Of a DNA stretch of 35,499 bases, positions 2,183 to 33,345 are shown one piece after another. The stretch's first letter is position 1; every line of letters begins with the position of its first letter. Below the pieces are notes generated by a model. That model made no database searches. It was given only the letters and a program-made list of their open reading frames with translations, and was not told where the DNA came from. The position numbers were made by a program, and so were the translations under genes. The stretch is from a virus: IMG/VR virus record IMGVR_UViG_3300008120_009499, positions 1 to 35,499 of that record. The stretch is one strand, 5' to 3'.

Positions 2183-2188
2183 ATAAAA

Positions 2189-10335: not shown

Positions 10336-10387
10336 ATTTTATGTATGAAAGTATTCACTATTTTTTTATATAAATTATTTTTATTAT

Positions 10388-12451: not shown

Positions 12452-12533
12452 TGTTTTTATATATGATATATAATATTGTGTTAATGTAAATATACATAAA
12501 AAAATAAAAAAAACTCAAATTTTTTTTTTTTAC

Positions 12534-12553
12534 TTTATTTATTAATAAATAAA
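12534..12553. other. 20-nt perfect AT palindrome before the tail tube gene
   Basis: TTTATTTATTAATAAATAAA is a perfect inverted repeat ending 12 bases before the tube ATG. It may be part of the tube promoter or leader, or simply AT-rich sequence; it lacks GC pairs and a loop, so a terminator role is unlikely. Confidence 0.4.
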
Positions 12554-12565
12554 AACTTAAATATC

Positions 12566-16114: not shown

Positions 16115-19100
16115 ATGCCAATAAATTTTCCAATAAATCCAACTATAGGTCAAACCTATACCTATGATTCGAAAACATGGGAATGGGAAGGTAGTTATTG
16201 GAAAGCATTGGGGATTGTTCCCGCAAATGGTTCTTCTGGAACAAGTGGTAGTGCAGGTAGTTCTGGTACAAGTGGTAGTTCGGGTAGTTCAGGAACTAGC
16301 GGTAGTTCGGGTAGTGCAGGTACATCAGGAAGTTCTGGTAGTGCAGGTACATCGGGTAGTTCAGGAAGTTCTGGTGAAAACGGAAGTTCTGGTTCATCTG
16401 GTAGTGCAGGTACATCGGGCAGTTCAGGAAGTTCTGGTGCAAACGGCAGTTCTGGCTCATCTGGTAGTGCAGGTACATCAGGTAGTGCAGGTTCTGCTGG
16501 TACAAGTGGTAGTGCAGGTACATCGGGTAGTGCAGGTACATCGGGCAGTTCAGGAAGTTCTGGTGCAAACGGCAGTTCTGGCTCATCTGGTAGTGCAGGT
16601 ACATCGGGTAGTTCAGGAAGTTCTGGTTCATCTGGTAGTGCAGGTACATCGGGTAGTTCAGGAAGTTCTGGTGTAAACGGAAGCTCTGGTTCATCGGGTA
16701 GTGCAGGAAGTGCAGGCACATCGGGTAGTTCAGGAAGTTCTGGTATAAACGGAAGTTCTGGTTCATCTGGTAGTGCAGGAAGTGCAGGCACATCGGGTAG
16801 TTCAGGAAGTTCTGGTGCAAACGGCAGTTCTGGTTCATCGGGTAGTGCAGGAAGTGCAGGCACATCGGGTTCATCTGGTAGTGCAGGTACATCGGGATCT
16901 TCTGGTAGTTCTGGAGTTAACGGAAGCTCTGGTTCAGCAGGTACATCTGGGGTAGATGGTGCTAGTGGAACTTCTGGAACAAGTGGAACTTCAGGATCAT
17001 CTGGTAGTGCAGGTACATCAGGTTCATCAGGAAGTTCTGGTGCAAATGGAAGCTCAGGCTCATCAGGAATAAATGGAAGTTCAGGTTCATCTGGGATAAA
17101 TGGAAGTTCAGGTTCTTCTGGTAGTGCAGGTATATCGGGAAGTTCTGGTTCATCTGGGATTAATGGAAGTTCTGGTTCTTCTGGTGAAAATGGAAGTTCA
17201 GGCTCTTCTGGTAGTGCAGGTACATCAGGAAGTTCTGGTTCATCTGGAATAAATGGAAGTTCTGGTTCTTCTGGTAGTGCAGGTACATCGGGAAGTTCTG
17301 GTTCATCTGGTAGTGCAGGTACATCGGGTTCATCTGGTAGTGCAGGAACTAGTGGTAGTTCTGGCAGTGCGGGTACATCTGGTTCATCTGGTAGTTCTGG
17401 TATAAATGGTAGCTCAGGTTCATCTGGTAGTGCAGGTACATCGGGTTCATCTGGTAGTGCAGGAACTAGTGGTAGTTCTGGCAGTGCAGGTACATCAGGA
17501 TCTTCTGGTAGTTCTGGTATAAATGGAAGTTCCGGTTCATCTGGAAGTTCTGGTACAAGTGGTAGTTCGGGTAGTGCAGGAACATCTGGTTCATCTGGTA
17601 GTTCTGGTACATCAGGATCATCTGGTAGTGCAGGAACTAGCGGTAGTGCAGGTTCATCAGGCACAAGTGGTAGTGCAGGTAGTTCAGGAACTAGCGGTAG
17701 TGCAGGTTCATCTGGCACAAGTGGTAGTGGAGGTAGTTCAGGTATAGATGGAAGTTCCGGTTCATCTGGAAGTTCTGGTACATCAGGATCATCTGGTAGT
17801 GCAGGAACATCTGGTTCTGCTGGTACATCCGGTTCATCAGGTAGTGCAGGTTCATCCGGCATTGATGGTGTGTCAGGCGGACAAAATTACTTTTTGAATT
17901 ATTCGGTAACTCAAAGTCCTTTAACATATAAAGAATTAGGTCGTTTTACGACAGGTGCTGGTCAGCAAACGGTCGCAATTACTTTGACATCAAATCAACA
18001 AGATGTATTGTTTGGTGAGTTCATTACTGATGTTGGAGATCCAAATGTTTTGATTATACCAAATGGTATTTGGCACAGTTATGTTTATTGGACTAAACCT
18101 ACAGACCTTTCTGATTGTGAATATTATTTCACAATAACAAAAAGAGAATCTGGTGGTACAGAAACTTTGTTATTCACATCAGATAGTGTTAAAATAGGTT
18201 GGAATGGAAATAACACAACACCTGTTGAAACAAAAGCAAATGGTGTTGTTCCTACCAATATTTTGGACTTAACGGACAGATTAATAATTAGGGTTTATGT
18301 AAATAACAATGATCCTCTCAATAGGCTTGTAACTTTTTATACTGAAGATGCTACATATTCTTATGTGGTCACAACTTTATCCACGCCATCTGGAACATCA
18401 GGCAGTGCAGGTTCATCTGGTACTTCTGGTTCATCTGGTAGTGCAGGAACAAGTGGCAGTGCAGGTTCATCTGGTACATCAGGTAGTTCAGGATCATCTG
18501 GTACAAGCGGTAGTGCAGGTAGTTCTGGTATAGACGGAAGTTCCGGTTCATCTGGAAGTTCGGGCACAAGCGGTAGTTCGGGTAGTGCAGGAACAAGTGG
18601 TAGTTCGGGTAGTTCAGGAACTAGCGGTAGTGCAGGTAGTTCTGGTATAGATGGAAGTTCCGGTTCATCTGGTAGTTCTGGTACATCAGGTAGTGCAGGA
18701 TCATCTGGTACAAGCGGTAGTTCTGGTAGTGCAGGAACATCTGGTTCATCTGGTAGTGCAGGAACTAGCGGTAGTGCAGGTTCGTCTGGTACAAGTGGTA
18801 GTGCAGGTAGTTCTGGTATAGACGGAAGTTCCGGTTCATCTGGAAGTTCGGGTACATCAGGTAGTGCAGGATCATCTGGTACAAGCGGTAGTGCGGGTAG
18901 TTCTGGTACATCAGGAAGTGTAGTTCTGGTACATCAGGAAGTTCTGGTAGTGCAGGAACATCTGGTTCATCTGGAAGTTCGGGTACAAGTGGTAGTTCGG
19001 GTAGTTCAGGAACATCTGGTTCATCTGGTAGTTCTGGTACATCTGGATCATCTGGTAGTGCAGGAACTAGCGGTAGTGCAGGTTCATCTGGTACAAGTGG

Positions 19101-19123
19101 TAGTGCAGGTAGTTCTGGTATAG
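16115..19123 (+). CDS. Giant collagen-like Gly-X-Y tail fibre, N-terminal part (frameshifted)
   Basis: Residues 1-38 form a fibre-attachment head (FPINPTIGQTYTYDSKTWEW, then WKALG). Residues 39-587 are about 183 Gly-X-Y triplets, X and Y almost all Ser, Thr or Ala with occasional IN, VN, EN or ID pairs and no proline. Residues 588-759 are a globular beta-rich domain (GQNYFLNYSV to YSYVVTTLS), and a second Gly-X-Y block follows. Bacterial and phage collagen-like repeats usually form trimeric triple-helical stalks. After residue 935 (nt 18919) four bases (CAGG of an expected GCAGGT) are missing; the last 67 residues, starting VVLVHQEVLV, are out-of-frame and stop at 19123. The natural frame continues at 18922. 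The intact product would be about 1640 residues. The lesion may be real, a repeat-linked on/off switch, or a sequence error in the repeats. Confidence 0.85.
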   Translation: MPINFPINPTIGQTYTYDSKTWEWEGSYWKALGIVPANGSSGTSGSAGSSGTSGSSGSSGTSGSSGSAGTSGSSGSAGTSGSSGSSGENGSSGSSGSAGTSGSSGSSGANGSSGSSGSAGTSGSAGSAGTSGSAGTSGSAGTSGSSGSSGANGSSGSSGSAGTSGSSGSSGSSGSAGTSGSSGSSGVNGSSGSSGSAGSAGTSGSSGSSGINGSSGSSGSAGSAGTSGSSGSSGANGSSGSSGSAGSAGTSGSSGSAGTSGSSGSSGVNGSSGSAGTSGVDGASGTSGTSGTSGSSGSAGTSGSSGSSGANGSSGSSGINGSSGSSGINGSSGSSGSAGISGSSGSSGINGSSGSSGENGSSGSSGSAGTSGSSGSSGINGSSGSSGSAGTSGSSGSSGSAGTSGSSGSAGTSGSSGSAGTSGSSGSSGINGSSGSSGSAGTSGSSGSAGTSGSSGSAGTSGSSGSSGINGSSGSSGSSGTSGSSGSAGTSGSSGSSGTSGSSGSAGTSGSAGSSGTSGSAGSSGTSGSAGSSGTSGSGGSSGIDGSSGSSGSSGTSGSSGSAGTSGSAGTSGSSGSAGSSGIDGVSGGQNYFLNYSVTQSPLTYKELGRFTTGAGQQTVAITLTSNQQDVLFGEFITDVGDPNVLIIPNGIWHSYVYWTKPTDLSDCEYYFTITKRESGGTETLLFTSDSVKIGWNGNNTTPVETKANGVVPTNILDLTDRLIIRVYVNNNDPLNRLVTFYTEDATYSYVVTTLSTPSGTSGSAGSSGTSGSSGSAGTSGSAGSSGTSGSSGSSGTSGSAGSSGIDGSSGSSGSSGTSGSSGSAGTSGSSGSSGTSGSAGSSGIDGSSGSSGSSGTSGSAGSSGTSGSSGSAGTSGSSGSAGTSGSAGSSGTSGSAGSSGIDGSSGSSGSSGTSGSAGSSGTSGSAGSSGTSGSVVLVHQEVLVVQEHLVHLEVRVQVVVRVVQEHLVHLVVLVHLDHLVVQELAVVQVHLVQVVVQVVLV
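16229..17875 (+). repeat. Coding tandem repeat: first collagen-like Gly-X-Y block
   Basis: About 183 uninterrupted 9-base Gly-X-Y codon units in the fibre gene, with higher-order repetition of 18-54 bases (GGTAGTTCTGG and GGTAGTGCAGG variants). Ser/Thr/Ala fill most X and Y positions. Such near-identical DNA is prone to slippage and mis-assembly. Confidence 0.93.
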
Positions 19124-19323
19124 ATGGAAGTTCCGGTTCATCTGGAAGTTCTGGTACATCTGGTTCATCTGGAAGTTCGGGTACAAGTGGTAGTGCAGGT
19201 TCTGCTGGTACAAGTGGTAGTGCAGGTAGTTCTGGTGTAAATGGAAGTTCTGGAAGTTCTGGTGTAAATGGAAGTTCAGGATCTTCTGGGGCAGCTGGTA
19301 CTTCTGGTTCCTCAGGTGTTTCA
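18392..19323 (+). repeat. Coding tandem repeat: second collagen-like Gly-X-Y block
   Basis: The same 9-base unit resumes after the globular domain. The repeat phase changes at 18920/18921, where four bases are missing; before this the Gly codons fall in frame 2, afterwards in frame 1. Confidence 0.93.
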
Positions 19324-21039
19324 CCTACTTTACCAACTCCTGCTGATTTTATTTGGACTTATGGAAACAGTTATAACACTTCTTTAAAAGTTTTAAGGAA
19401 TAATTATACATTAAATGTTTATAGTAACTGGAGTATCTTGGCTGGAAGAAGTAATTCGATTGCTCAGTTTGCTGATCATGCTGGAATATTAGCCGGTAGA
19501 GACAACACTATAACATCAACTACATATAGACCAAGTCAATACGCTTTAATATTCGGAGGAAATCAAAGTAAAATTAAGAGATCATCTAAAAATTCAGGTA
19601 TATTCAATGGATATAAAAACTACATAGGAAATAATGATGACATTTACTTTAATACAACCAAATACAATAATATTACAACTGGAAAGTTAAATAGAATAAA
19701 TATAAATTTTGTTCCTACTCCTCAAGATAATATTAACATTGATTATAATTTAATTTCAAACGGTATTGGTAATAAAATTTATGCTACAGCCCATACTCAA
19801 AGAAACTTTATAGTAAACGGATACCAAAACTTTTTAGGTTCTGCAAAAGCAAGTTTTATAGATAATGGTGCATACAATAAAATAGAATTAAACATAAGAG
19901 GATATAAAAACAATTCTGATTATTTCAACGTATACAATAGTGTTTATAGTAAATATCATTTTATAAACAATGGATATAGTAACTTAATTTCGGATTACCT
20001 AAGAATATATAAAGTAGATACTAATCAAAAATTCGAAATTAAAGGAAGATCAAACAGTATATTAAACGGGACTGATAACGAGATATATGGTGGATTAAGT
20101 TTTATTACAGATGAAAATGCTACAACAACTTCTTCGCAATCATATTTTAATACTGTTGAAAATGGAAAGCAAAATAAAATCGTAGCTTCAGGAAAAACAA
20201 ATTATAATTTCATACAAAATGGTTTACAAAATACAGTAAATAACACTACTAATTCTGGAATTTTAAATGGGTATAAAAATAGAATAATACAAATAATCAA
20301 TGCAGATATTGATGGAAGGGCAGCCAATAATCTATTAAATAAATATAATAGTATTGGTAATGGAAATAGTAATTTAATTTCTGGACAAAATAAAGCAAAT
20401 TCTGATTATACTTCTAAATACAACACTGTAGCTAATGGTAGATTAAATAAAATAGAAGCTACTTCATATAGAGGATATAGTGCAAATACAGAATATAATT
20501 TTATTGCAAATGGAAGAGGAAATGAAATTTATGCAGCAAAATTTTCTGGTATTTTGGGTGGATCTGGACACACTATTCGTTTTAATCATTCTGTTATACT
20601 TGGAGGTACAAATCTCACATCAACAAGAGATGAAGAAGCTAGAGTTAAGAATTTAACTATTACAAATCAAGTTCTTGGTGGAGATAGATTTTTAACTATT
20701 GACTCTGCAACAGGTTATGTTTATTATACGGGAACTACTGGAGGGGGTAGTGGTTCTGGAACTTCTGGTTCAAGTGGTAGTTCTGGAATTAATGGAAGTT
20801 CAGGATCTTCTGGTAGCTCTGGGGCAAGCGGAAGCTCAGGTTCATCAGGAAGTGCTGGAGAAAGTGGAAGCTCAGGTTCATCAGGAAGCACTGGGGCAAG
20901 TGGAAGCTCAGGTTCATCAGGAAGTACTGGAGCAAGTGGAAGTTCAGGATCTTCTGGTAGTTCTGGTGCAAATGGTTCATCAGGAAGTTCTGGTGCAAGC
21001 TTTCAACAAATGTTAATAATAACATCATTAGGAGTGTAA
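18922..21039 (+). CDS. Collagen-like tail fibre, C-terminal part with beta-roll region
   Basis: The frame is open without stops from 18922 and continues the Gly-X-Y repeats of the upstream gene, so this is the other part of the same fibre. The first start-type codon is TTG 19438, inside a folded region and without an A-rich leader, so independent initiation is unlikely. After the repeats (to 19323), about 480 residues carry a recurring N-x-I-x-x-G-x-x-N-x-I pattern (SGIFNGYKNYI, GILGGSGHTI) like the left-handed beta-rolls of YadA-type trimeric adhesin heads. A third Gly-X-Y block of about 27 triplets follows (20758-21000), and the protein ends with a short hydrophobic tail (MLIITSLGV). I infer a trimeric, receptor-binding fibre tip region. 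Confidence 0.8.
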   Translation, partial: SSGTSGSSGSAGTSGSSGSSGTSGSSGSSGTSGSSGSSGTSGSSGSAGTSGSAGSSGTSGSAGSSGIDGSSGSSGSSGTSGSSGSSGTSGSAGSAGTSGSAGSSGVNGSSGSSGVNGSSGSSGAAGTSGSSGVSPTLPTPADFIWTYGNSYNTSLKVLRNNYTLNVYSNWSILAGRSNSIAQFADHAGILAGRDNTITSTTYRPSQYALIFGGNQSKIKRSSKNSGIFNGYKNYIGNNDDIYFNTTKYNNITTGKLNRININFVPTPQDNINIDYNLISNGIGNKIYATAHTQRNFIVNGYQNFLGSAKASFIDNGAYNKIELNIRGYKNNSDYFNVYNSVYSKYHFINNGYSNLISDYLRIYKVDTNQKFEIKGRSNSILNGTDNEIYGGLSFITDENATTTSSQSYFNTVENGKQNKIVASGKTNYNFIQNGLQNTVNNTTNSGILNGYKNRIIQIINADIDGRAANNLLNKYNSIGNGNSNLISGQNKANSDYTSKYNTVANGRLNKIEATSYRGYSANTEYNFIANGRGNEIYAAKFSGILGGSGHTIRFNHSVILGGTNLTSTRDEEARVKNLTITNQVLGGDRFLTIDSATGYVYYTGTTGGGSGSGTSGSSGSSGINGSSGSSGSSGASGSSGSSGSAGESGSSGSSGSTGASGSSGSSGSTGASGSSGSSGSSGANGSSGSSGASFQQMLIITSLGV
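20758..21000 (+). repeat. Coding tandem repeat: third collagen-like Gly-X-Y block
   Basis: About 27 Gly-X-Y triplets near the end of the fibre, again Ser-rich, with GASGSSGSSGSTGASGSSG-type units. It links the beta-roll head to the last 12 or so residues. Confidence 0.9.
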
Positions 21040-21044
21040 AAATT

Positions 21045-21947: not shown

Positions 21948-21959
21948 AAAAAATAAATT

Positions 21960-22898: not shown

Positions 22899-22910
22899 AA
22901 ATAAATAAAA

Positions 22911-23825
22911 ATGCTAATAGATAATACCAATGAAACAATTGAACTAGTACTTGCTGCTAGTGTTACGACAAATCAGGCAACATTTTCTTGTTCATTTAAT
23001 GAATTTTCATCTAATACGTTTTCAGGGAATGAAACTAATGGTACAAGTAATAATACCACAGCGGTGACTTTAGTAGCAAGTCCTTCATCAGGTTTTCAAA
23101 GACAAGTTAGAGAATTAATTATTGAAAATAATGATACCGCTTCGATTACAGTCACCATAAGATTTAATAATACATCGGTTACTAGAATAATTATGAAAGC
23201 TATATTAGCAGTTGGAGATAGTTTAACTTATTCAGCACATGACGGTTGGAATTGTAAAGATACAAACGGAGGAATTAGATTTTATAACATACATATCAAT
23301 CCAACTGGAAGTGTTAGAGGTCCTGAATTTTTTCCAGTTTCTGCTGCTGCTACGACTACAACTTTAGGTGCGAATGTTGCAGGTCAATATTTGGGTAAAG
23401 CTGAAAAGGCATATTCATCAATCGATTTTAGGTATAGAGTTGATACGGCTATTGCTGGTACTCAAACATTTTCTGAACTGGCTGTTTATAGGATTTCAAA
23501 TAGAATGAGCATAGGAACACAACAAGTATGGACAAGATTGGGTTTTACAAACTGTGCTGCTGTATGGAATTCCACCGGTTTAAAAACAACTAATGTTGCT
23601 CTTACAGGTTGTAGAACAGGTGATGATTTATATGTAATTTGGGCAAGTAATAATACTACATCTATGGCACCAAGAAGTGGCAACTATGCTGATCCAATAA
23701 GTTCAATATTACAAGTTACAACAACAACCGTAGCAAGCTGGAGACCAAGCACATCACCTCTATATCAAGCTACAAGTTTTACTGCAGCTGCATCAGCTGT
23801 ATGGGTCTTGTGGCAAGGAAATTAA
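22911..23825 (+). CDS. Fibre-associated structural protein, paralogue 3 of 3 (304 aa)
   Basis: Most divergent of the three paralogues: MLIDNTNETIELVL at the start, TTAVTLVASPSS, then YLGKAEKAYSSIDFRY, SELAVYRI, GFTNCA and SWRPSTSPLY, ending in AVWVLWQGN. It closes the plus-strand operon. Its stop codon overlaps the stop region of the opposing glycosyltransferase gene (four shared bases), so no terminator fits between them. A fibre or adhesin role is inferred from position and resemblance to the other two copies. Confidence 0.7.
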   Translation: MLIDNTNETIELVLAASVTTNQATFSCSFNEFSSNTFSGNETNGTSNNTTAVTLVASPSSGFQRQVRELIIENNDTASITVTIRFNNTSVTRIIMKAILAVGDSLTYSAHDGWNCKDTNGGIRFYNIHINPTGSVRGPEFFPVSAAATTTTLGANVAGQYLGKAEKAYSSIDFRYRVDTAIAGTQTFSELAVYRISNRMSIGTQQVWTRLGFTNCAAVWNSTGLKTTNVALTGCRTGDDLYVIWASNNTTSMAPRSGNYADPISSILQVTTTTVASWRPSTSPLYQATSFTAAASAVWVLWQGN

Positions 23826-26185
23826 AATATAATTTTATTAATTTTATCTATTACCATATTTGAAGTAATTGATTTGGTACATTCAAATTGTCTTGAAGTT
23901 CCTTTATGTCTTGGGCACCAATTCCAGTCAGCAGGATCTAATCTAAAATCATTGAAACATCCATTGCAAGTTTTAGTCTGATCTTCTACAAACACTCGTT
24001 CACAATCTGTCATTTCGCAAATAGGTCTAGAAAAACCACTTATTAATACAGTTGGTTTATTCAATGACCAAGATAACCATGATAAACCACTGCCCAATCC
24101 AATAAAACCTTCTGAGTGATAAATATAATTACATATTTCTTGAATAGTCTTACCATCTATTTTAATTACACCTTTAGGGTTTTTATTTCCCATATAATTA
24201 TCAGGTTCTTTTGATAAAAGAAAAACTTCATAATCATTAGATTTCAAATAGTCAACAACTTCTTGCCAGCCGTTTGGATTATTCCAATATTTAGATTGAG
24301 CTGTGGAATGATTAGCAATACAAAAATATTTTTTATTAGTTGGTCTTTCAGATGGAGTAAAATCTATTTTTGGTTTTATTTCTTTGAATTCTAATCCCAA
24401 AATATCACAAGCTGTTTTTTGTAGATGTTGATCTCTGAAATTAAAAGGATTTTTTGATGATACTATTTCGTTTTTATCATCATAAAACCAACCTATAGTA
24501 AACATTTTATATAGATTATGAACTACTGATCCCGGTTGAACAAATTCTATTTCTGGATAATTTTTTTCAAAAAAACTATTATGGAAAGTTGAACATATTA
24601 CTTTACAATTATTTTTTATTCTAAACTCTTCAACTTGTGGAAACCAAGCGATTGTGTCTCCCAGTGATGAGGAATCTAAGTGTATATATATACGTTGATT
24701 TTCAAATGATGGTTTAATGATATGAGTTTTACCTTCAAGTTTATATTGTATATAAAAATCTCTATGATATTCTCTGTTCAACTGAGCGAACATATTATTT
24801 CTTAAAGTGGTTTCGTATAAAAGATCATTTGTTTCATTGTCAAAAAATCTGAATTTCACTTCAAATTTTTCTTCGCATTTTAAATCTATTCTTGGTTCTT
24901 TAAAATATGAAAATAAAACTTCTGTTTTTGTTTTTTTATTTTCTTTAATTGAAATTGGTGTTTTTTCATAAACATCAATTAGTGTATCTTTAAGATTCAT
25001 GTTTTCTTTTTTTTCATTATTTGATCCTTTATCAAGTTCAATAAAAGAAGCTCTAAAGTTTTGGTAATTAAAATAAATTGGAATTTTGTTTTGTATTTTT
25101 TGTTTAATCAATTCTAAATTATTTATGCCACTTCTATTGTTATTGTGTAGGTGAGTGTTATCAGAAAAATAATTTATTTTACAATTTATATTAGAAGCAA
25201 TTTCATATATAGTTTCGGCATCATCAAATGAATTTATTCTTAAAAAAGCATAATCCAAATCAATATATTCATCAAAATAAAGATCATGATCAAAAAAAAG
25301 AATTTTTAGTTTTTCATTTTGTTTTTCATTGTAATTGAAATTAAAGAAACCTATTTTTTTTCTTGAATTTTCCCAGTTTAATGGACTTATATATGTTGAT
25401 TCGGCAGCTTCGTATATATCATCAAAGAATGTGTTTTTTCTCGGATATTCAATATTTGAATTTTTTCTTCTTTCTTTTGCTTCTTTTATGAGAACAACCT
25501 CACCTCTTATATTCCAATTTCTAAAATTTTCAGAATCATAATGTTGTCTAGCCAAATAAACTGTTCTAGGAATAGTCAACCATTTTCCTTTTTCTTCGAG
25601 ATTAATTAACCATTGAGCATCATTAGAAGTACATATTTCATTATCTTCATGTACTTTAAAATTAAGTTCTGGTAAATTTCTAAATATTCTTAAGTAGCCA
25701 AAAATTCCACTTCTTTCTGGTGTCAATCTTTCAAATGCTTCTAAAAATGAATTATTATCTCTTGATATATAAACATTGTCAACAAATCTTTCTAAAAAAT
25801 TTTCTTTAGAGGAAGGTAATGAATCTTGATATTTATTAGCATTAAAATGTAGAAAAATAACTTCTGGAAATTTTTCAAAATAAAAAACAATCTTTTCAAA
25901 TGTATTTGGTAAAATTTTATCATCACCATCAATTGGACATACTATGTCTCCGGTAGCATGTAGTTGTGGATTCCACCAAATTTCTTTTTTATAATTTGGT
26001 TTTTTTAATTTTATTCTGTTATCTAGTCTTGAAAGTTCTTCGAGAATTTTACCTGTATTGTCTGAAGAAAAATCGTCAGCTATAATCCATTCCCAATTAT
26101 TATATCTTTGAGACAGAATTGAACTTGCTAATTCTTGGATATATTTTTCAGAATTATAAAAGGAAGTTATTATAGATAATTTCAT
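23822..26185 (-). CDS. GT2 glycosyltransferase fused to autotransporter-type O-heptosyltransferase-like domain
   Basis: Residues 1-~240 are a GT-A/GT2 domain (SIITSFYNSEKYI, ADDFSSD, DxD-like Asp86-Gly-Asp88). A linker region follows (to ~425). Residues ~430-787 match the bacterial autotransporter heptosyltransferase (Aah/TibC) family: a small beta domain (FEVKFRFFDNETNDLLYET), then IHLDSSSLGDTIAWFPQVEE (501-520), NHSTAQSKYWNNPNGWQEVV, the sugar-nucleotide loop GLGSGLSWLSWSLNKP (696-711) and an iron-finger-like Cys cluster (Cys740, Cys743, Cys757, Cys769). That family transfers heptose from ADP-heptose to Ser in repeat adhesins. It is the last gene of the minus-strand glycan operon and abuts the Ser-rich fibre operon. 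A second sugar could be added by the GT2 half. Sugar and acceptor are inferred. Confidence 0.85.
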   Translation of the reverse strand: MKLSIITSFYNSEKYIQELASSILSQRYNNWEWIIADDFSSDNTGKILEELSRLDNRIKLKKPNYKKEIWWNPQLHATGDIVCPIDGDDKILPNTFEKIVFYFEKFPEVIFLHFNANKYQDSLPSSKENFLERFVDNVYISRDNNSFLEAFERLTPERSGIFGYLRIFRNLPELNFKVHEDNEICTSNDAQWLINLEEKGKWLTIPRTVYLARQHYDSENFRNWNIRGEVVLIKEAKERRKNSNIEYPRKNTFFDDIYEAAESTYISPLNWENSRKKIGFFNFNYNEKQNEKLKILFFDHDLYFDEYIDLDYAFLRINSFDDAETIYEIASNINCKINYFSDNTHLHNNNRSGINNLELIKQKIQNKIPIYFNYQNFRASFIELDKGSNNEKKENMNLKDTLIDVYEKTPISIKENKKTKTEVLFSYFKEPRIDLKCEEKFEVKFRFFDNETNDLLYETTLRNNMFAQLNREYHRDFYIQYKLEGKTHIIKPSFENQRIYIHLDSSSLGDTIAWFPQVEEFRIKNNCKVICSTFHNSFFEKNYPEIEFVQPGSVVHNLYKMFTIGWFYDDKNEIVSSKNPFNFRDQHLQKTACDILGLEFKEIKPKIDFTPSERPTNKKYFCIANHSTAQSKYWNNPNGWQEVVDYLKSNDYEVFLLSKEPDNYMGNKNPKGVIKIDGKTIQEICNYIYHSEGFIGLGSGLSWLSWSLNKPTVLISGFSRPICEMTDCERVFVEDQTKTCNGCFNDFRLDPADWNWCPRHKGTSRQFECTKSITSNMVIDKINKIIF

Positions 26186-26211
26186 TTATATAATTTTATT
26201 TATTTAAAACA

Positions 26212-27693
26212 TTAAAAATTCTTGAGTTTTTTATTTTTAATCTTAATTGCAAAGTTATCCATTTTTAAATTAAAAGGGATTTTATTCACAAAAAACTGAG
26301 TTAATCTATATTGTCCAAAATTTATTCTTAATTCATATAATTCATTTTCTTTAAGAGGTGAACTTGGAACCATATAAAAAGAGTTATTTTTTATTCTACA
26401 CCCAGAAATTACAACTCCATTTTTATTATGTACAGTTGCCATTATAAATAAATTTTTTTCACATAAAAATTCAAATCTTATATAATTTTCTTCCACGTTA
26501 ATTAAAAATGTAGAATTTACAAATTCTTCACTCTCTAAATATTCATTTTTGACAAATGAAATTTTAACTGCATTATCTGCTAACCAAGTTTTACCAAAAG
26601 AATGGTCACAATTTAACCAAGTTTTTTCAATATCTGGTCTAGATTTATAATCTATTAATTTTTTCTCTGTTTCACAATCTTTTGATAAAGTCCAATCTGT
26701 TTCGGTATAACTATTGTAATTTTGATTTTCACCAACCCTTAACCATTTTTCTTCGAATTGAGTGTGAGATAATCCTCTAAAAATTCCCCATGAGCTGACA
26801 CGAGGTAAACATATTGATTCATTACCCCTTTCGAAAAAAGAAATATTATTCATTTTTAATCTAAAAAACCAATCTAAATCTTCACACTCACCTCCAATAA
26901 ATCTTTCATCCATCAAGCCAATTTTTCTAAACAATTGTTTTGAACAACCAAAAAGTCCAAAATTAACCTCTGAAACAAATGCATAACCAGAACACAAGAG
27001 AACTAAAAGATTTTCTATAATTTCAAACGTTGTATTTACTCTTGGATGAATCCAAAAAATAAATTCACTATCATGCATACAAAATACAGACTCATTTATA
27101 ATTTGAGAAAAAGAATTGTATGTGCCTGACCAAATTTCATTTCTAAACCATGTTTCATAAACAAAATTATTTTTTACACAATCTTTTAGAATTATTTTTT
27201 CATTTTCATAATTATTTTTACCTAAAAAAGCTAAACCTATTTTCGATGGTTTTAATTGACGAGCTTTAAGGAATTTGAAGTATTTATCAGTTACATCGTT
27301 CAAAAATGATATTTTTTGAGTTCCATTAAATATTAATATTAAATTTTTTTGATCTGTAATATTTATTTTAAAAGATGTTATATCAATTAAATCTTTTAAT
27401 TTATTCTCAATTAAAAAATATTCTTCATTGTTTTCTGTAATAATAGCTATTGATCCCCAAAGGTTAATTTTATTTATCAAACTATGTATGTCATTATTTT
27501 CATTATCTGATAAATCTTTAAATTTTATTATTATCAAATCAAATTTATGATTCAAAGAATTATAATAAATTTCACTTGATTGATTGCTGTAATCCTTTTT
27601 ATTTTCTAAAATTGAATTTTTGTCTAAAATTTTTGAATAATTTAATAAATTACAAGTTGTAATAAGTAATTCTTTGATAAATATATAATTCAT
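26212..27693 (-). CDS. Glycosyltransferase-like protein, GT-A C-terminal motif (493 aa)
   Basis: The middle (~145-300) has the C-terminal GT-A signature of GT2/GT7-like enzymes: SEVNFGLFGCSKQLFRKIG, then MDERFIGGECEDLDWFFRL (261-279), where the E-D-x-D supplies the catalytic-base region. The first ~120 residues include FDLIIIKFKDL and WGSIAIITEN and resemble a decayed methyltransferase-type Rossmann half. The last ~90 residues are a beta-sandwich-like domain (IRFEFLCEKNLFIMATVHNK). It starts with no gap after the RmlD-like gene's stop (TAA then ATG) and lies 26 bases before the fused transferase, in one operon. The donor sugar is unknown. Confidence 0.7.
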   Translation of the reverse strand: MNYIFIKELLITTCNLLNYSKILDKNSILENKKDYSNQSSEIYYNSLNHKFDLIIIKFKDLSDNENNDIHSLINKINLWGSIAIITENNEEYFLIENKLKDLIDITSFKINITDQKNLILIFNGTQKISFLNDVTDKYFKFLKARQLKPSKIGLAFLGKNNYENEKIILKDCVKNNFVYETWFRNEIWSGTYNSFSQIINESVFCMHDSEFIFWIHPRVNTTFEIIENLLVLLCSGYAFVSEVNFGLFGCSKQLFRKIGLMDERFIGGECEDLDWFFRLKMNNISFFERGNESICLPRVSSWGIFRGLSHTQFEEKWLRVGENQNYNSYTETDWTLSKDCETEKKLIDYKSRPDIEKTWLNCDHSFGKTWLADNAVKISFVKNEYLESEEFVNSTFLINVEENYIRFEFLCEKNLFIMATVHNKNGVVISGCRIKNNSFYMVPSSPLKENELYELRINFGQYRLTQFFVNKIPFNLKMDNFAIKIKNKKLKNF

Positions 27694-28485
27694 TTATAAA
27701 TATTTTTTTTTAAAGTATATCATAGATAAAATTTGCATATCTAGACTTGGTAAATTAATATCACTTTCTAGACATTTGTTTATGTTTTTTTTATTAAGAA
27801 CGGGATTTATTTTTTTATTTAAATGTAGAAAATTATTAAATTTTGATAGTAATTGATATTTGCTTAATTTTTCTGAGCCTACTTGAATTACATTTTCAAA
27901 ATTTTCAGGATTTTCTATAATAAATTCACAAATTTCAGCCCACTGCAATGTAGTTATTCCATTCCAAAAAACATTAGTAAATCCATCAATTATTTGTCTT
28001 TCATTATTAACAAACCAATTCCAAAGAGAAAAATTAGAATTTTTTTCTGGTCCAACGATAGAAGTTCTTATTTGCTTTACATTTTTATAGTTTTTCTCTA
28101 AGAACAATGATCCATATGCTTTGGATGAACCATAATTATCTTCAGCATTTCTTATTGTTTTTTTTGAATAAAATCCATTTTCTTCAATATTACCATTAAA
28201 CTCACAATCTGTGCTAGGATGAATGATCAATCCATTAAAATTATCAGCCAACCATATTGGAAGCATGATGTTAATCGTTAAGTAATCATTAAGTTTTGGA
28301 TTTTTTTGAGGAATAATTCCTATGCAATTAATTAATACATCAGCTTCAGAATTTTTAATTTTCAGTTTAAAATTTTCATCAGGCCATTTCAAATCTAATG
28401 TATCAACTTTGAAACCTTTGATTTTAAAATAACTTAAAACAACATGGCCTAACATACCATTGTGGCCCAATATTAAAATTTTCAT
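27694..28485 (-). CDS. RmlD-like sugar-nucleotide reductase (extended SDR)
   Basis: The N-terminal NAD(P)-binding motif is LGHNGMLGH (Gly7, Gly10, Gly13). LINCIGIIPQ and HPSTDCEFNG are typical of the RmlD substrate-binding family, and the catalytic pair is Tyr118-Gly-Ser-Ser-Lys122. RmlD reduces dTDP-4-keto-L-rhamnose, while relatives (WbjC/CapF/FnlB type) reduce other 4-keto sugars. At 263 residues it is near the usual RmlD length (~290). The neighbouring CapE/PseB-like dehydratase (29048) makes 4-keto sugars, so this enzyme may reduce its product, for example toward an N-acetyl-fucosamine-type sugar. Gap to the upstream gene is three bases. The exact substrate cannot be read from sequence. 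Confidence 0.8.
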   Translation of the reverse strand: MKILILGHNGMLGHVVLSYFKIKGFKVDTLDLKWPDENFKLKIKNSEADVLINCIGIIPQKNPKLNDYLTINIMLPIWLADNFNGLIIHPSTDCEFNGNIEENGFYSKKTIRNAEDNYGSSKAYGSLFLEKNYKNVKQIRTSIVGPEKNSNFSLWNWFVNNERQIIDGFTNVFWNGITTLQWAEICEFIIENPENFENVIQVGSEKLSKYQLLSKFNNFLHLNKKINPVLNKKNINKCLESDINLPSLDMQILSMIYFKKKYL

Positions 28486-28488
28486 TAT

Positions 28489-29040
28489 TTAGTAAATTAA
28501 TTGTTTAAATCTACTGATTTTTTTTACCATGGTAACGCCCGGATTAAATGGTAGTGTTAGAATTTCAAAATCGTCAATTAAATTTTTTTTAATAAATAAA
28601 GGGGTTTTATATGCATCATTACAAAAACCCGGATCAAACATGTAAGGGTCATAAGGGTATGTATCATGAAAGAATATGAATCCATCTTCTATAATGTGTT
28701 TTGAGGCATTCATAAAATCTTTTAAAGATTGTTCATGTGAATGATCAGCATCAATAAAAATCATATCAAACTTAATGTTGGGATCTAGTTCTTCAAAAAA
28801 TTTGTCTGTTGTCATTTGAAAATATTTCATATTACCTTTTAAGTTAAATGGACATGATGATGTGTCTACTCCCCAAGACTCTTGACAAAATTCAGAAATT
28901 GGATTAAAATTTCTTCCATCTCTCACACCAAGCTCTAAATATCTTTCAGGTTTTAAGTATGAACATATAAATGAAAAATAAGATACATGATCAAATGTTT
29001 CAAGTGGTGGTGGTACGTTTCTTAAGTGTATTGGTTTCAT
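28489..29040 (-). CDS. Class I SAM-dependent methyltransferase (Methyltransf_24-like)
   Basis: The 183 residues hold the Rossmann methyltransferase motifs: RYLELGVRDGRN (33-44) is the SAM-binding motif I, and FDMIFIDADHSHEQSLKDF (91-109) has the D-x-D-H-x-H pattern typical of the Methyltransf_24/CmcI-like sugar and small-molecule methyltransferases, followed by GGx-like FIFFHDTYP. It lies seven bases before the dehydratase gene and three after the RmlD-like gene in operon order. A role in methylating a glycan or sugar intermediate is inferred from context; a protein substrate cannot be excluded. Confidence 0.8.
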   Translation of the reverse strand: MKPIHLRNVPPPLETFDHVSYFSFICSYLKPERYLELGVRDGRNFNPISEFCQESWGVDTSSCPFNLKGNMKYFQMTTDKFFEELDPNIKFDMIFIDADHSHEQSLKDFMNASKHIIEDGFIFFHDTYPYDPYMFDPGFCNDAYKTPLFIKKNLIDDFEILTLPFNPGVTMVKKISRFKQLIY

Positions 29041-29047
29041 ATTTTTT

Positions 29048-29974
29048 TTAAATATTGTTGAAGTAATTTTTGTTCAATAAAAATGTATTTAATTCTTCTT
29101 TACTTAGACAGTGATCTTTACTTGAATATTCTTTGAAATTTAATTCATTGAAAACCTTATGATAATGCATTAACAAATAATTATCAATTTCTTTTGTTCT
29201 AGAAACTTCTTCTTCTGCAATCATGATTTCGTGTATTTTTTCAGATATTCTTGGTTCACCTATTTTATATCTCAAACCAAATTTTTTTTGATAAATTTCG
29301 AAAAGATCTTTAATATAAAAACTTTTTATTTTAGGTATTATATTGTAGCTTTTTTGTGTCAAAGAAAATTCAACTAACTCTATAGCTTCATCAATAGTCA
29401 AAATAAATCTTGTCATATTTTCAGAATATAGAGTCAGTTCGTAGTCTTTTTTTATAGCATCCCAAATTAGAGGGATAATACTTCCAGTAGAATTAGCAAC
29501 ATTTCCATAAATTGCACAACTCAATCTTGTTTCTGAGCATTCAGAGTTCACTATAAAACTTTCTCCAGCTACAAATTTCATAGCTCCATATAAAGTCGTA
29601 GCTCCTCTACTCTTATCAGAAGAAATAAAACAAGCTGATTCCATCTTATTTTCCTCTGCTACCCTTCTTGAGTTTAATGCCCCTTCTATAATTATTTTTA
29701 CTGCTTCCTCCACGTTTTGATCAACACTTTCTATTTGTTTTAGAGAAGCTGCAAAAATTCCAATATCATGTTTTGTTGAAGCTCTCTTTAATAAATCATA
29801 GTTTCTAATATCTCCAATTACAGTTTTAATTTTTGGATATTCTTTTTTTAAAAAATAATGCTTTGATTCATCTCTACTATAAACTGTAATTTCGTTATTA
29901 TTATAATATTTTTTTATAAGATTTTTACCTAAAAAACCTGCACCTCCGGTTATAAATATTTTTTTATCTTTCAT
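29048..29974 (-). CDS. UDP-GlcNAc 4,6-dehydratase-like enzyme (CapE/PseB/FnlA type)
   Basis: An extended SDR with ITGGAGFLGKNL (8-19), the family-specific AASLKQIESVDQNVEEAVKI (75-94) that replaces the AALKHVP element of PseB/CapE proteins, SSDKSRGATTLYGAMKFVAG with Tyr129 and Lys133 of the YxxxK pair, and SCAIYGNVANSTGSIIPLI. Such enzymes convert UDP-GlcNAc to 4-keto-6-deoxy intermediates for aminosugars. The Thr of the usual STDK motif is Ser here. At 308 residues it is a little shorter than typical relatives (~330-345). It is five bases after the large multi-domain gene and supplies substrate candidates for the RmlD-like reductase. Confidence 0.82.
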   Translation of the reverse strand: MKDKKIFITGGAGFLGKNLIKKYYNNNEITVYSRDESKHYFLKKEYPKIKTVIGDIRNYDLLKRASTKHDIGIFAASLKQIESVDQNVEEAVKIIIEGALNSRRVAEENKMESACFISSDKSRGATTLYGAMKFVAGESFIVNSECSETRLSCAIYGNVANSTGSIIPLIWDAIKKDYELTLYSENMTRFILTIDEAIELVEFSLTQKSYNIIPKIKSFYIKDLFEIYQKKFGLRYKIGEPRISEKIHEIMIAEEEVSRTKEIDNYLLMHYHKVFNELNFKEYSSKDHCLSKEELNTFLLNKNYFNNI

Positions 29975-29979
29975 AATTT

Positions 29980-32900
29980 TTAAATTAAATCAAATTCATG
30001 GTCTAGGTTTTTTGAATATTGTAAATATCTTTCATATTCCTCCATAAACGGATTTAGATTTCCCCCCTGTGAAGCTCCGGGTTGATAGTACCATCTTTCG
30101 TTCAAATGATATATTTTTGGATCTAGATATTTGTTCGCAATTCTCACTGTTCCATCTATTTCATTTTTCCATGGATTTTCATTCTCTTCTAAAGAAGAAA
30201 TTAGAAATTCTCTATTCCAGATACATGCATTGTGAGTCAAAAGCCATTCACTATTATTTTTTGCTTTTAATACTCTTTTACCTTCAACAAAATGACTTGT
30301 TTTAATAAATTCATATGAACCCCAAAGCTTTTCATGTATTCTTAGACAGTTCCAATCGTTTAACCTAACCTTGTGAAGAGATTTCTTGAAAGTATTATAA
30401 TCAGCTTTTACTGTAAGCCACATATCTTCCTGCATATATAATACATATTTTGTATTCAATTTACTCAAAATATCGAGTAGTCTATTTGAAAATTGAGATG
30501 AGTCAATTGATTTAGGAGATTTAATGTTATTAACCCTGAAATCATTGAATGGTAAATCTTTTTCTTCTGTACAAAAATATACCGGCCAATTCAAACTCCA
30601 ATCCCAATATCTGGAAAAAGATAAATACCAACCATTCCAAAATCTTTCATAATTATCACATGATTGAATAATTACAGTTATATCATCATCAATATTTTCT
30701 TTTCTATATATTGGGGTATTTGGATCGATATCAGTTCCCTCTTTAAATCTCATATCTATTGATGATATTCCGGGCTGTTGAAGAAAATAAGGTATTCTAT
30801 AAATTCCTCTTTTTCTGTTCCAGAAAAATATATTACACCATAGATCATATGCATCCCAATTTGTATTTAATAGTTTATCTGCATATTCATTTATGTGAGA
30901 TTTAGTTATTAAATAACAATGTGCTTCTGATTGTTTGAACGTGAAGAACAAATCATTAACTATATTTTCGTGCTCAACTCCCGGAATTTGTTTACCAAAA
31001 GATGTTGAGATTAAATCATGTTTATTGTTTAAAAAATAGGTATCTATAATTTTTTCATAAACTTCTTTATATTCACCAAAAACTATACAATCACATTCAC
31101 AAATCAATATAGCATCATAATTTTTTATATAATCATCACAAATTGATTTTTTGTGTGAATTATAACATCCATAGTGAGATGGTGTCAACAAATAATCTCC
31201 GGGATTTAAAGATATTGCGTGTGGTCTTTGACAATTTTCATAAGGGGGTAAATCATAATATTTTGGTGTTATTAATTGTTCATAATCTAATCCGTAAGAT
31301 GATAGGTTGCGAAGAGATTCTATAGATTTAATTTCTCTTGGACCTTCGGGATTATTTAATATATGAATTATTTTGATTTTTGGTTTTTTGATACAATAAA
31401 AATTAGATAAATTTTTATCATCTGTATAATTGTCTTGATAATTGAAGCCACAATCTTTTAAAGTTTTTACTATAAAATTATACCCTTCAATTCCTATTGA
31501 ATTAATATGAATCTCTCCTGTTATTTTCTTTATTTTATGTTTTAAAAAATCTTTGTCAATAGTTTCAAAAAATTCTAATTCTGCCCCTTCGCAATCAATC
31601 TTTAAATAATCGATATAATTGATATTGTTTTCAGAAATAAAATCATTTACATTTTTTATTGTGACTTTTTCTTTTTTTCTATTTAAACCCCAATAATGTT
31701 CTATGTTTTCTGTTAATTCTTTCTTACCTGATATTGATGAAACCTCGCCTGTTAAAAATTCTACTTCTTCATTTTTAGCACCTATTCCGAAATTGAAAAC
31801 TTGTATGTTGGATAAATCTTTTGTATTAAATTTTAAATATTCATATGTCTCTTTTATGGGTTCTATTGAATAAACCTTTTTAGCACCCATCGAAGCAGCA
31901 TATAATGTAAAAAGTCCTATATTAGAACCAATATCAACAACTATATCATTATTCTCTATGTTTTTATAATCTTCTCTTATGAAAATTTCATAAAAACTCC
32001 AAAATGAAGAATGATCTATTGGATTACATTTAAGTTCTATTTTTTTATTTTGTATTATTATTTCTGTTGTTGGAAATACATTTGGTTTCCATGTAGTTTT
32101 TTTTAAATCTAAAAAAGATTCACTTTGTATTATGTTTAAATCGTTGTCAAAAAATTCTACACAAATTCCATTTCTATGATTTTGTTGAGCATTTGGAATC
32201 ATCCACATTCCATCTCCCTTATTGAAAGATAAGTCTGAATATAGACTTTGAAAAACTAAATTGGTTAAGGGGTCTCTCATTCTTATATTGTATGTTTTGA
32301 GAGAAGGGTGATTGCTTATTATTGAATAATGTATTTTACCTTCATTTTCATCATAAGACACATCAAAAAATTTTTGTTTAGTTCTAAGTTTTAATTTATC
32401 TTTAATTAATTCAATATTGTTCTCTGAATTAGATAAATAATTTATATTATCAAATTTATCAAAATAATTTTGATATACATCTAAATTATAAAGTAGAATT
32501 GGAATTTTCCAACCGATAGCTTCTCTTAAAACTAAAGGCATTGTCTCTTTATCACCATTATTGCCCCTAGATGTAAAAAGAAATAAATCCATGCAACTGT
32601 AAAAAGTATCTGTATCATTTCTTTCACCCCATATTCTGCAATTTGCAGGTTTGTTAATTAATAAAGGTTCCCAATAGAATTTAAAATTATCAGCCTGATT
32701 TCCTAAAAAATGAAATTCTACAGTATTGTCAAAATATTTAGCTAATTCAAATATTTCAGCTTGATTTTTTCTTGGTGTAAAAAGTCCAACATTTAATATA
32801 TGTTTTTTTTTGGGATCTAATCCTAGTTTTATTAATGTTTCCTCTCTATTGGGTCTTTCTTTGTATTCTATTGGATATTCTGCCAAATATTTAGGAACAT

Positions 32901-33345
32901 CAATATTTTTATATTGTTCAATTTGCCAATTGCTTACAAAAAGAAATGCATCTGGAAAATATTTTTTGTTTTCATCCGGATTGTAAGATGAATCATGACT
33001 AGTTTCAAAAATTTTATATGATCTATTTTTATTATAAATAAAATCAGCAATTTCTTTTGGTAAAAAATATTCCGGAATTTCTTCAATATGAATGAAATCT
33101 GGTTTGATATTATCAATTAAATCTTTAATTTCATATAATTTGTTTTGTCCTAAAGAGAAAAAATGATTTTCATCTAAAATTTTTGTTATTCTGTTTCTTT
33201 GAATTACTAAAACTCCACCAGTAATATTTTCATATTCAATACAGAAAACCTCTAATTTATCCTTAAGAAGTTCTATTTTTTTGAATAAGTATTGTGGTAG
33301 ACCCCCTGTTGAAAGGTGTGGAGCAATAAATATTATTTTTTTCAT
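29980..33345 (-). CDS. Four-domain glycosyltransferase/FkbM methyltransferase polyprotein (1121 aa)
   Basis: Domains in order: 1-~305, a GT-B/GT4 transferase (IIFIAPHLSTGGLPQYL, NVGLFTPRKNQ, and the E-x7-E pair Glu267/Glu275 in KETMPLVLREAIGWKIP); ~325-420, a beta-rich linker domain; ~440-655, an FkbM-type methyltransferase (VVDIGSNIGLFTLYA at 469-483, YLKIDCEGAELEF at 580-592); ~655-880, a GT25-like transferase (THYG-type start, NYDAILICECDCIVFGE at 742-758); and ~888-1121, a further GT-A-like domain (WNGWYLSFSRYWDW, YVLYMQEDMW). The second glycosyltransferase call (GT25-like) is the weakest. One polypeptide with three transferase-type domains and a methyltransferase fits stepwise assembly of a capped glycan. 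It heads the glycan operon; the leader is AT-rich, 41 bases after a structural gene. Confidence 0.82.
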   Translation of the reverse strand: MKKIIFIAPHLSTGGLPQYLFKKIELLKDKLEVFCIEYENITGGVLVIQRNRITKILDENHFFSLGQNKLYEIKDLIDNIKPDFIHIEEIPEYFLPKEIADFIYNKNRSYKIFETSHDSSYNPDENKKYFPDAFLFVSNWQIEQYKNIDVPKYLAEYPIEYKERPNREETLIKLGLDPKKKHILNVGLFTPRKNQAEIFELAKYFDNTVEFHFLGNQADNFKFYWEPLLINKPANCRIWGERNDTDTFYSCMDLFLFTSRGNNGDKETMPLVLREAIGWKIPILLYNLDVYQNYFDKFDNINYLSNSENNIELIKDKLKLRTKQKFFDVSYDENEGKIHYSIISNHPSLKTYNIRMRDPLTNLVFQSLYSDLSFNKGDGMWMIPNAQQNHRNGICVEFFDNDLNIIQSESFLDLKKTTWKPNVFPTTEIIIQNKKIELKCNPIDHSSFWSFYEIFIREDYKNIENNDIVVDIGSNIGLFTLYAASMGAKKVYSIEPIKETYEYLKFNTKDLSNIQVFNFGIGAKNEEVEFLTGEVSSISGKKELTENIEHYWGLNRKKEKVTIKNVNDFISENNINYIDYLKIDCEGAELEFFETIDKDFLKHKIKKITGEIHINSIGIEGYNFIVKTLKDCGFNYQDNYTDDKNLSNFYCIKKPKIKIIHILNNPEGPREIKSIESLRNLSSYGLDYEQLITPKYYDLPPYENCQRPHAISLNPGDYLLTPSHYGCYNSHKKSICDDYIKNYDAILICECDCIVFGEYKEVYEKIIDTYFLNNKHDLISTSFGKQIPGVEHENIVNDLFFTFKQSEAHCYLITKSHINEYADKLLNTNWDAYDLWCNIFFWNRKRGIYRIPYFLQQPGISSIDMRFKEGTDIDPNTPIYRKENIDDDITVIIQSCDNYERFWNGWYLSFSRYWDWSLNWPVYFCTEEKDLPFNDFRVNNIKSPKSIDSSQFSNRLLDILSKLNTKYVLYMQEDMWLTVKADYNTFKKSLHKVRLNDWNCLRIHEKLWGSYEFIKTSHFVEGKRVLKAKNNSEWLLTHNACIWNREFLISSLEENENPWKNEIDGTVRIANKYLDPKIYHLNERWYYQPGASQGGNLNPFMEEYERYLQYSKNLDHEFDLI

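Follow-up and report, generated by a model that had tools for sequence, protein, structure and literature searches.

A TibC/Aah-like transferase encoded beside a serine-rich Gly-X-Y fibre suggests a phage system for O-glycosylation of its own fibre

Glycosyltransferases encoded by phages are usually explained by modification of DNA or of the host O-antigen. The viral record IMGVR_UViG_3300008120_009499, which belongs to a large phage and is analysed here over its 35,499 nucleotides (the window), raises the question of what such enzymes may act on, since a set of putative glycan genes meets a gene for a serine-rich, collagen-like fibre. An earlier note, made from the letters of this DNA, had proposed that the phage glycosylates that fibre itself. 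From comparison of sequences and predicted folds, we judge it probable that the phage O-glycosylates its own Gly-X-Y fibre with an enzyme of the TibC/Aah fold, by the full mechanism proposed below. If this is true, phages of a widespread class add sugars to the fibres that contact the host, which would bear on receptor binding, fibre stability and the prediction of host range.

The transferase domain and its relation to TibC

The glycan genes end with a gene for a 787-residue protein (23822-26185, minus strand). In a profile search, its residues 418-785 matched TIGR04414 (hepto_Aah_TibC) with 286.9 bits (E 2e-85), the curated family cut-off being 200 bits, and the same residues matched the TibC structure 4rap at 8e-54. 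By these matches, the domain is assigned to the Aah/TibC O-heptosyltransferase family, as the earlier note had claimed. An AlphaFold model of the domain (pLDDT 89.7) superimposed on TibC (4rap/4rb4) with a TM score of 0.84-0.85 and E 1e-36 over 377 columns, so that the structural likeness expected by that note was found; the model contains the N-terminal barrel, the GT-B catalytic core and the iron finger of TibC.

The agreement extends to single residues. D510, T628, K632 and W703 correspond to the catalytic base and the sugar-binding residues of TibC (D110, T226, K230 and W305), and Cys740/743/757/769 correspond to Cys339/342/358/370 of the iron finger, a motif whose function has been established in TibC (PMC4358343). 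These cysteines and the GLGSGLSWLSW loop lie exactly where they had been placed before. D110, K230, W305 and all four cysteines (TibC numbering) are invariant in 64/64 phage relatives, and the hydrophobic pair at the thumb tip, F265 and V266 in TibC, is retained as Tyr-Met in the window protein. The GT2 domain said to be fused to the transferase was also recovered (PF00535, E 3e-20). Most phage relatives either have a GT4 domain in this place or consist of the transferase alone. One phage protein is already named 'Glycosyltransferase Aah/TibC' in BFVD, and TibC homology in phages is therefore already present in databases; a literature search returned no paper joining TibC to phage, or a heptosyltransferase to collagen-like proteins.

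While the phage enzymes share with the characterised bacterial autotransporter heptosyltransferases (BAHT) a score above the family cut-off, the barrel, the iron finger, the residues D110, T226, K230 and W305 and the four cysteines, they form a separate clade, are mostly fused to GT2 or GT4 and have usually lost Arg286. Their partners differ as well, being an autotransporter in the known systems and a Gly-X-Y protein here: no strand-loop-strand autotransporter was seen among the window ORFs scanned, and the neighbour is the fibre. An autotransporter partner distinguishes the characterised BAHT members but is no part of the TIGR04414 sequence model.

The Gly-X-Y fibre and its setting

The proposed acceptor is encoded on the plus strand (Table 1), in a region that also carries tail sheath and tail tube genes (5310-13057), and it combines repeats, a repetitive central domain and further repeats (Pfam Collagen, E 3e-102). 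The earlier note had spoken of hundreds of triplets composed mostly of Ser, Thr and Ala; our count is 314, with 210 S and 67 T at the X position and 224 S and 59 A at the Y position, so that Ser and Thr make up about 80% of X and Y. Pro, Lys and Arg are absent from all 314 triplets. Such long, uninterrupted runs in a gene of the tail region are those of a collagen-like phage fibre, although a polyglycine-II type bundle is a possible alternative to the triple helix for repeats without Pro. The Ser codons are divided between AGY (41%) and TCN (59%).

In the window, the reading frame is broken at about 18922. The break is missing in L003, a record of the same phage (99.8% identical), which is open from the repeats to the stop codon; because L003 reads through, the two ORFs (16115-19123 and 19438-21039) form a single fibre gene, and the frameshift is, from this comparison of sequences, probably an assembly error. 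The same read-through ruled out two separate genes as well as a programmed frameshift.

Table 1. Positions of the fibre, transferase and neighbouring features in the window
Feature	Position	Strand	Basis
Ser/Thr-rich Gly-X-Y fibre gene, proposed acceptor	~16115..21039	+	Pfam Collagen; 314 triplets; continuous in L003
Gly-X-Y block 1, 184 triplets	16229..17884	+	
Gly-X-Y block 2, 59 triplets	18392..18922	+	
Gly-X-Y block 3, 44 triplets, shifted frame	18928..19323	+	
Gly-X-Y block 4, 27 triplets, C-terminal	20758..21000	+	
TibC/Aah-like (BAHT family) transferase domain, residues 418-787 of 787 aa	23822..24934	-	TIGR04414; 4rap; fold TM 0.85
Iron-finger motif Cys740/743/757/769	23879..23968	-	invariant in 64/64 phage relatives
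GT2 glycosyltransferase domain, N-terminal, residues 4-118 of 787-aa protein	25832..26176	-	PF00535, E 3.4e-20
493-aa protein, GG-EDLDWFFR stretch GT-A-like by eye	26212..27693	-	weak relatives in two phage lineages
RmlD-like sugar nucleotide reductase, lineage-specific	27694..28485	-	PF04321, 3.7e-10
Methyltransf_24 family methyltransferase, lineage-specific	28489..29040	-	PF13578, 5.2e-10
PseB/FnlA-like UDP-GlcNAc 4,6-dehydratase	29048..29974	-	PF02719, 5.6e-45; PseB model 174 bits, under its cut-off of 408
GT4 (APHLSTGG type) - FkbM methyltransferase - C-terminal GT-like protein	29980..33345	-	PF00534; PF05050

The glycan genes do abut the fibre genes, with an overlap of 4 bases (23822-23825), but the two sets converge on opposite strands and are therefore neighbours rather than one operon. 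Among the glycan genes, the GT4 enzyme is a recurrent partner of the TibC-like gene, about 25 of 42 phage loci having a relative of the GT4 part close to that gene, and a role in chain extension and methylation is proposed for the three-part protein that contains it. The 493-aa protein had no family match in Pfam or NCBIfam; weak relatives lie near the TibC-like gene in two other phage lineages, the L044 and L062-L064 groups. The dehydratase, reductase and methyltransferase had been thought to provide or cap the sugar. The genes are present as described, yet their counterparts occur in 0, 0 and 1 of 42 other phage loci, respectively, so this part of the idea is weakened: being almost never found in related loci, the three would account for lineage-specific decoration at most, and for the dehydratase a lineage-specific supply of sugar may be supposed.

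Pairing of enzyme and repeats in phages and bacteria

Viral contigs were chosen solely by their Ser/Thr Gly-X-Y DNA, blind to the enzyme (n = 50), and TIGR04414 scored above its cut-off in 20 of them. It was found in 0/43 contigs with proline-collagen, 0/46 random contigs (a 16-mer pattern yielded 10 of these, and a 14-mer was added) and 0/28 relatives of the tail tube, the latter two together giving 0/74; Fisher p values ranged from 3e-5 to 1e-12, with about 1e-12 against all controls pooled. Among records of at least 80 kb, the enzyme was present in 13/18, as against 0/19 controls. The association with repeat fibres anticipated for other phages is thus strong, and it is specific to Ser/Thr-rich, not proline-rich, Gly-X-Y. 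On the other hand, 60% of the Ser/Thr Gly-X-Y contigs carry no TIGR04414 enzyme, which counts against the proposed glycosylation of the fibre; possible reasons are that these contigs are fragments, use other enzymes or have no glycosylation. Two broader explanations were rejected, namely that the pairing is a general trait of collagen-like phage proteins (by the proline-collagen control) or of the tail lineage of the window (by the tail-tube relatives).

In the reverse direction, 42 distinct phage loci were found through the enzyme alone, and 20 of them have Ser/Thr Gly-X-Y within 10 kb of it (median gap 2.9 kb), several contigs breaking inside the repeats. This survey bears on whether another virion protein is the acceptor. 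The acceptor of TibC, TibA, is beta-helical (PMC4358343), and repeat proteins of beta-solenoid look do occur in the window: two further fibre-like proteins (1-1806 and 3058-4902) with Asn-rich repeats that are not Gly-X-Y, and the central domain at 19438-20700. Of the 42 other loci, however, just 0 to 2 have relatives of these proteins close to the enzyme, and several bacterial cassettes hold a protein that is mostly repeat, so we hold an acceptor of this kind to be very improbable.

Related bacterial and archaeal enzymes join those of phages in a clade apart from the classical BAHT enzymes (100% support), and their loci pair enzyme and repeats in 17/24 cases, as against 1/56 for the classical clade of autotransporter type (p 5e-11). 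Stand-alone bacterial relatives, methanotroph isolates among them, adjoin genes for secreted proteins with GTSGTSG repeats. The gene beside the enzyme in Methylobacter luteus and Methylomicrobium encodes a small GTS/GTA-repeat protein that seems to carry a signal peptide; several other genomes have in this place a small lipoprotein-like product consisting mostly of repeat.

It could be argued that the cluster remodels a host surface glycan (LPS or O-antigen) against superinfection and lies near the fibre because this is a hypervariable host-recognition region. Such a role is the usual reading of phage glycosyltransferases (PMC7029224), polysaccharide pathways typically include enzymes like the adjoining dehydratase, reductase and methyltransferase, and tail-fibre regions are known as variable islands. 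But the characterised TibC family targets Ser of proteins and not lipid A or O-antigen, the enzyme specifically accompanies Ser/Thr Gly-X-Y fibres, those of proline-collagen type lacking it, and on bacterial chromosomes the enzyme and its repeat protein sit together amid unrelated genes. We consider a host-glycan role unlikely, and the association in phages and bacteria, with the fold match, supports glycosylation of the phage's own fibre.

Donor sugar, proposed mechanism and known systems

Arg286 of TibC, which contacts the adenine, is replaced by Ile in the window protein, and ADP-heptose is therefore not secure as its donor. Arg is present at this position in 12/64 phage sequences, as against 70/85 bacterial ones, and the position varies across most of the phage clade. 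A variant compatible with fibre glycosylation would keep the acceptor and switch the donor, for instance to a hexose or another nucleotide-sugar, making the enzyme an O-glycosyltransferase but not a heptosyltransferase. The loss of Arg286, Gly at residue 300, the PseB-like dehydratase and reductase next to the enzyme, and the lack of an HldE-like kinase in two long records of the window phage all point this way. In about 19 related phage loci, however, an adenylyltransferase (TIGR02199-like) and a heptose kinase (TIGR02198-like), together resembling a split HldE, stand directly behind the enzyme, and these loci likewise lack Arg286; K230 and W305 are, moreover, invariant. The split genes lend indirect, sequence-based support to a heptose donor, and a switch of donor seems to us rather doubtful; in the window phage itself, heptose is uncertain because the kinase homologue is missing and Arg286 is Ile.

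The cytoplasm is where BAHT enzymes work, and phage fibres not yet assembled would be within their reach there. As a phage protein-O-glycosyltransferase of TibC/Aah fold, the 787-residue protein would work in the host cytoplasm, ahead of virion assembly and lysis, where its C-terminal domain would move a sugar, probably heptose or heptose-like, onto the dense Ser, perhaps also Thr, of the Gly-X-Y fibre whose gene adjoins its own. Extension of the glycan chain would then fall to the GT4 protein together with the fused GT2 domain, and FkbM and other modifying enzymes would decorate it. The phage may benefit by having a proline-free fibre that is stiff, masked or resistant to proteases, and such glycans could explain the folding or solubility of Gly-X-Y fibres of this kind. 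Counted against this mechanism is that TibC works as a dodecamer, while the window enzyme is a fused protein whose ring is only putative. BAHT enzymes modify Ser in repeat proteins (PMC4358343), but the known acceptors of TibC are beta-helical and not Gly-X-Y, which was also weighed against it.

With somewhat less assurance, we lean towards a wider reading, in which a previously unrecognised TibC-like subfamily has exchanged beta-helical autotransporters for Ser/Thr-rich Gly-X-Y repeats as its acceptor and travels as an enzyme-substrate pair among large aquatic phages and bacteria; phages would then bear O-glycosylated, proline-free tail fibres, some lineages encoding an ADP-heptose-type donor pathway themselves. 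This would give the BAHT family a second class of acceptor, and the minimal bacterial pair of a small enzyme and a small GTSG protein would be a potential simple tool for O-glycosylation.

Parts of this arrangement are known elsewhere. In Clostridioides difficile spores, the gene of the glycosyltransferase SgtA adjoins that of the collagen-like protein BclA3, whose triplet repeats SgtA O-glycosylates (PMC7157674), but the enzyme is another one and places GlcNAc on Thr of Gly-Pro-Thr at the spore surface. Mimivirus L230, a collagen hydroxylase/glucosyltransferase, likewise adds sugar to Gly-X-Y peptides in proteins of the virus that encodes it (PMC9614988); it is unrelated, belongs to a eukaryotic virus and targets hydroxylysine, whereas the phage repeats have no Lys. 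The mycobacteriophages Che8, Corndog and Myrna are reported to encode glycosyltransferases that modify their own virion proteins (PMC12363180), although these are capsid and tail tube rather than repeat fibres. Both the enzyme and the Gly-X-Y fibre are present in the cultured Microcystis phage Mel-JY01, which makes glycosylation of the fibre testable now.

A TibC-like enzyme and its serine-rich neighbour

The product of 23822-26185(-) joins a GT2 domain at its N-terminus to a C-terminal domain scoring 286.9 bits against TIGR04414 (curated cut-off 200), a model titled "autotransporter strand-loop-strand O-heptosyltransferase". This second domain also aligns at 8e-54 with TibC, whose structure is known. 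An AlphaFold model of the TibC-like domain, built with 21 phage sequences (pLDDT 89.7), aligns with TibC at a TM score of 0.85 over 377 columns, far above the 0.41-0.50 obtained for the LPS heptosyltransferases WaaC and heptosyltransferase II. TibC needs the base Asp110, Thr226, Lys230, Trp305 and four iron-binding Cys (PMC4358343), and the window enzyme keeps an equivalent of every one. Across 64 distinct phage sequences, Asp110, Lys230, Trp305 and the four Cys are invariant, and position 226 is Thr or Ser. The TibC-like transferase with iron-finger Cys described in the earlier note is thus borne out, as is the structural match that it proposed to check by prediction. Its score, fold and catalytic residues place the enzyme in TIGR04414, yet two traits of the characterised members, Arg286 and an autotransporter partner, are missing; judged from sequence and predicted structure, it is therefore a variant within the family. 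GT4, GT2 or methyltransferase domains are often fused to TibC-like enzymes.

The adjoining fibre gene has Ser (67%) or Thr (21%) at most X positions and Ser (71%) or Ala (19%) at most Y positions, in agreement with the composition noted earlier, and no Pro, Lys or Arg at either position of its Gly-X-Y triplets. In the window record the gene changes frame at ~18922, most likely through an assembly error in low-complexity DNA, since L003, a 99.8% identical record of the same phage, keeps one frame across the repeats, a repetitive central domain and a second repeat block up to the stop, and contigs of several relatives likewise terminate in Gly-X-Y repeats. Because relatives' contigs often end in this way, enzyme/fibre co-occurrence is undercounted in metagenome assemblies. 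An ARAGORN tRNA-Arg call at 20732-20820 overlaps the Gly-X-Y coding sequence and is probably spurious.

Feature coordinates in the window and in related loci
Feature	Record	Position	Strand	Content
Fibre Gly-X-Y blocks	window	16115-21039	+	184, 59, 44, 27 triplets
Split HldE-like pair	L017 (phage)	11098-12232		
Split HldE-like pair	L042 (phage)	11426-12567		
Cassette	L544 (Methylobacter luteus)	8860-11062		stand-alone enzyme + GTS/GTA repeat protein
Cassette	L550 (Methylomicrobium)	9644-11714		stand-alone enzyme + GTS/GTA repeat protein
Cassette	L559 (bacterial)	10001-11638		stand-alone enzyme + small GTSG/GSSG repeat protein

Enzyme-repeat pairing in viruses and cells

Viral contigs were picked solely by a DNA pattern of 12 consecutive Gly-[Ser/Thr]-[Ser/Thr]-type codons (50 whole records, the surveyed contigs being fragments), and 20 of them encode a TIGR04414 protein above cut-off. 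None was found in contigs picked by a Gly-Pro-X pattern (0/43), in random contigs (0/46) or in relatives of the window's tail tube with the same phage left out (0/28). Fisher p values, from counts that ignore kinship, are 8e-7 for the comparison with the proline control and 1e-12 when all controls are taken together; for records of 80 kb or longer the ratio is 13/18 versus 0/19. The phage survey suggested in the earlier note thus shows the expected association. L404, a proline-pattern locus outside the tested set, encodes the enzyme and also holds Ser/Thr Gly-X-Y. In the reverse direction, Ser/Thr Gly-X-Y lies near the enzyme (up to 10 kb per side) in 20 of 42 distinct phage loci picked through the enzyme, the window included, and a strict six-triplet match occurs in 21/46 whole records. 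In Microcystis phage Mel-JY01 (PP395634), the annotation puts an antisense "hypothetical protein", 739-2298(-), over a Ser/Thr Gly-X-Y coding stretch at 836-2176(+), and the sole annotation of the TibC-like fusion is "methyltransferase FkbM".

Cellular genomes supply an independent line of evidence. Among 80 bacterial or archaeal loci, the enzyme tree splits into two clades with 100% support. The clade of TibC, Citrobacter, Acetobacter, Pandoraea and Caballeronia has Gly-X-Y in 1/56 cellular loci; the other, with the phage sequences, methanotrophs and assorted metagenome-assembled genomes, has it in 17/24 (median gap to the enzyme 836 bases), where "bacterial" loci from metagenome assemblies may include phage contigs and isolates are free of that problem. 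In L544 and L550, an enzyme of 419-432 aa lies 41 to 110 bases from the gene of a repeat protein with an apparent signal peptide (read by eye), amid cellular genes. The neighbour in L558, L559, L565 and L571 is a lipoprotein-like protein of 112-135 aa (lipobox by eye), mostly GTSG/GSSG repeats. In these bacterial two-gene cassettes, the repeat protein stands out as candidate acceptor. Since phage and bacterial sequences are intermingled in the tree, transfers between the two seem to have left the pairing intact.

Sugar donor, partner genes and proposed pathway

In about 19 phage loci, a split HldE-like pair lies directly 3' of the TibC-like gene. Two groups of loci (L006-L020 with L022; L042) show it close behind the enzyme, sometimes with a 4-base overlap. 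One gene of the pair (129-134 aa) fits best to TIGR02199, heptose-1-phosphate adenylyltransferase (90-101 bits), and the other (246-250 aa) to TIGR02198, heptose-7-phosphate kinase (117-132 bits), both below cut-off. TIGR02198 matches 13/43 enzyme-bearing phage records and also 14/14 control genomes; because PfkB kinases match so widely, we limit the label to "HldE-like". In L042, the gene after the pair encodes a Gly-X-Y fibre bearing a Peptidase_S74 chaperone domain, which is a phage-fibre hallmark. This arrangement favours a heptose-type donor in phages with the pair. For the window phage's own enzyme a heptose-type donor is less secure, since two records of more than 200 kb show no HldE-like kinase and the position of Arg286, which contacts adenine in TibC, is Ile; Arg occupies it in 12/64 phage versus 70/85 bacterial sequences.

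Relatives of the GT4 part of 29980-33345 accompany the TibC-like domain, as neighbours or as fusions, in about 25 of 42 phage loci, compared with none for the dehydratase or the reductase and one for the small methyltransferase. The core of the system is therefore fibre, TibC-like enzyme and GT4, with variable decoration.

Fibre monomers would be produced in the host cytoplasm, where the TibC-like domain may place the first sugar on Ser (TibC modified Ser, not Thr; PMC4358343); GT4/GT2 could then extend the chain, FkbM methylate it, and the glycosylated fibre join the tail. The sugars might stabilise or solubilise a proline-free Gly-X-Y rod, or else shield it against proteases and binding proteins. 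C. difficile SgtA, whose gene lies beside the collagen-like bclA3 as the enzyme and fibre genes do here, is a precedent for O-glycosylation of collagen-like repeats by the product of an adjacent gene (PMC7157674). Viral enzymes glycosylate the virus's own proteins in mimivirus (L230; PMC9614988) and in mycobacteriophage virions (PMC12363180). Among open-licence papers, we found none connecting TibC-type enzymes with Gly-X-Y fibres or phages.

The tail region

The window, a 35.5-kb IMG/VR virus record (GC 30%), contains tail sheath and T4-type tail tube genes, and belongs to a large phage, as longer records of the same phage reach 216,699 and 222,069 bases. The product of 2413-3045 has no Pfam match; its HxD...H pattern resembles, by eye, a 2-oxoglutarate/Fe(II) oxygenase, and Mel-JY01 likewise has a gene annotated as prolyl 4-hydroxylase. 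The fibre repeats offer no Pro or Lys for hydroxylation. The tail sheath gene occurs twice in tandem (5310-7277, 7240-7593, 7647-10286), the first copy being shortened, with its C-terminal part encoded in a different frame by an ORF of its own that overlaps it (7240-7593). Between the tail genes lie a MUG113/T5orf172 (GIY-YIG-type) protein, 10388-10729(+), and a DUF7487 protein, 10724-12451(-), possibly homing-endonuclease-like insertions.
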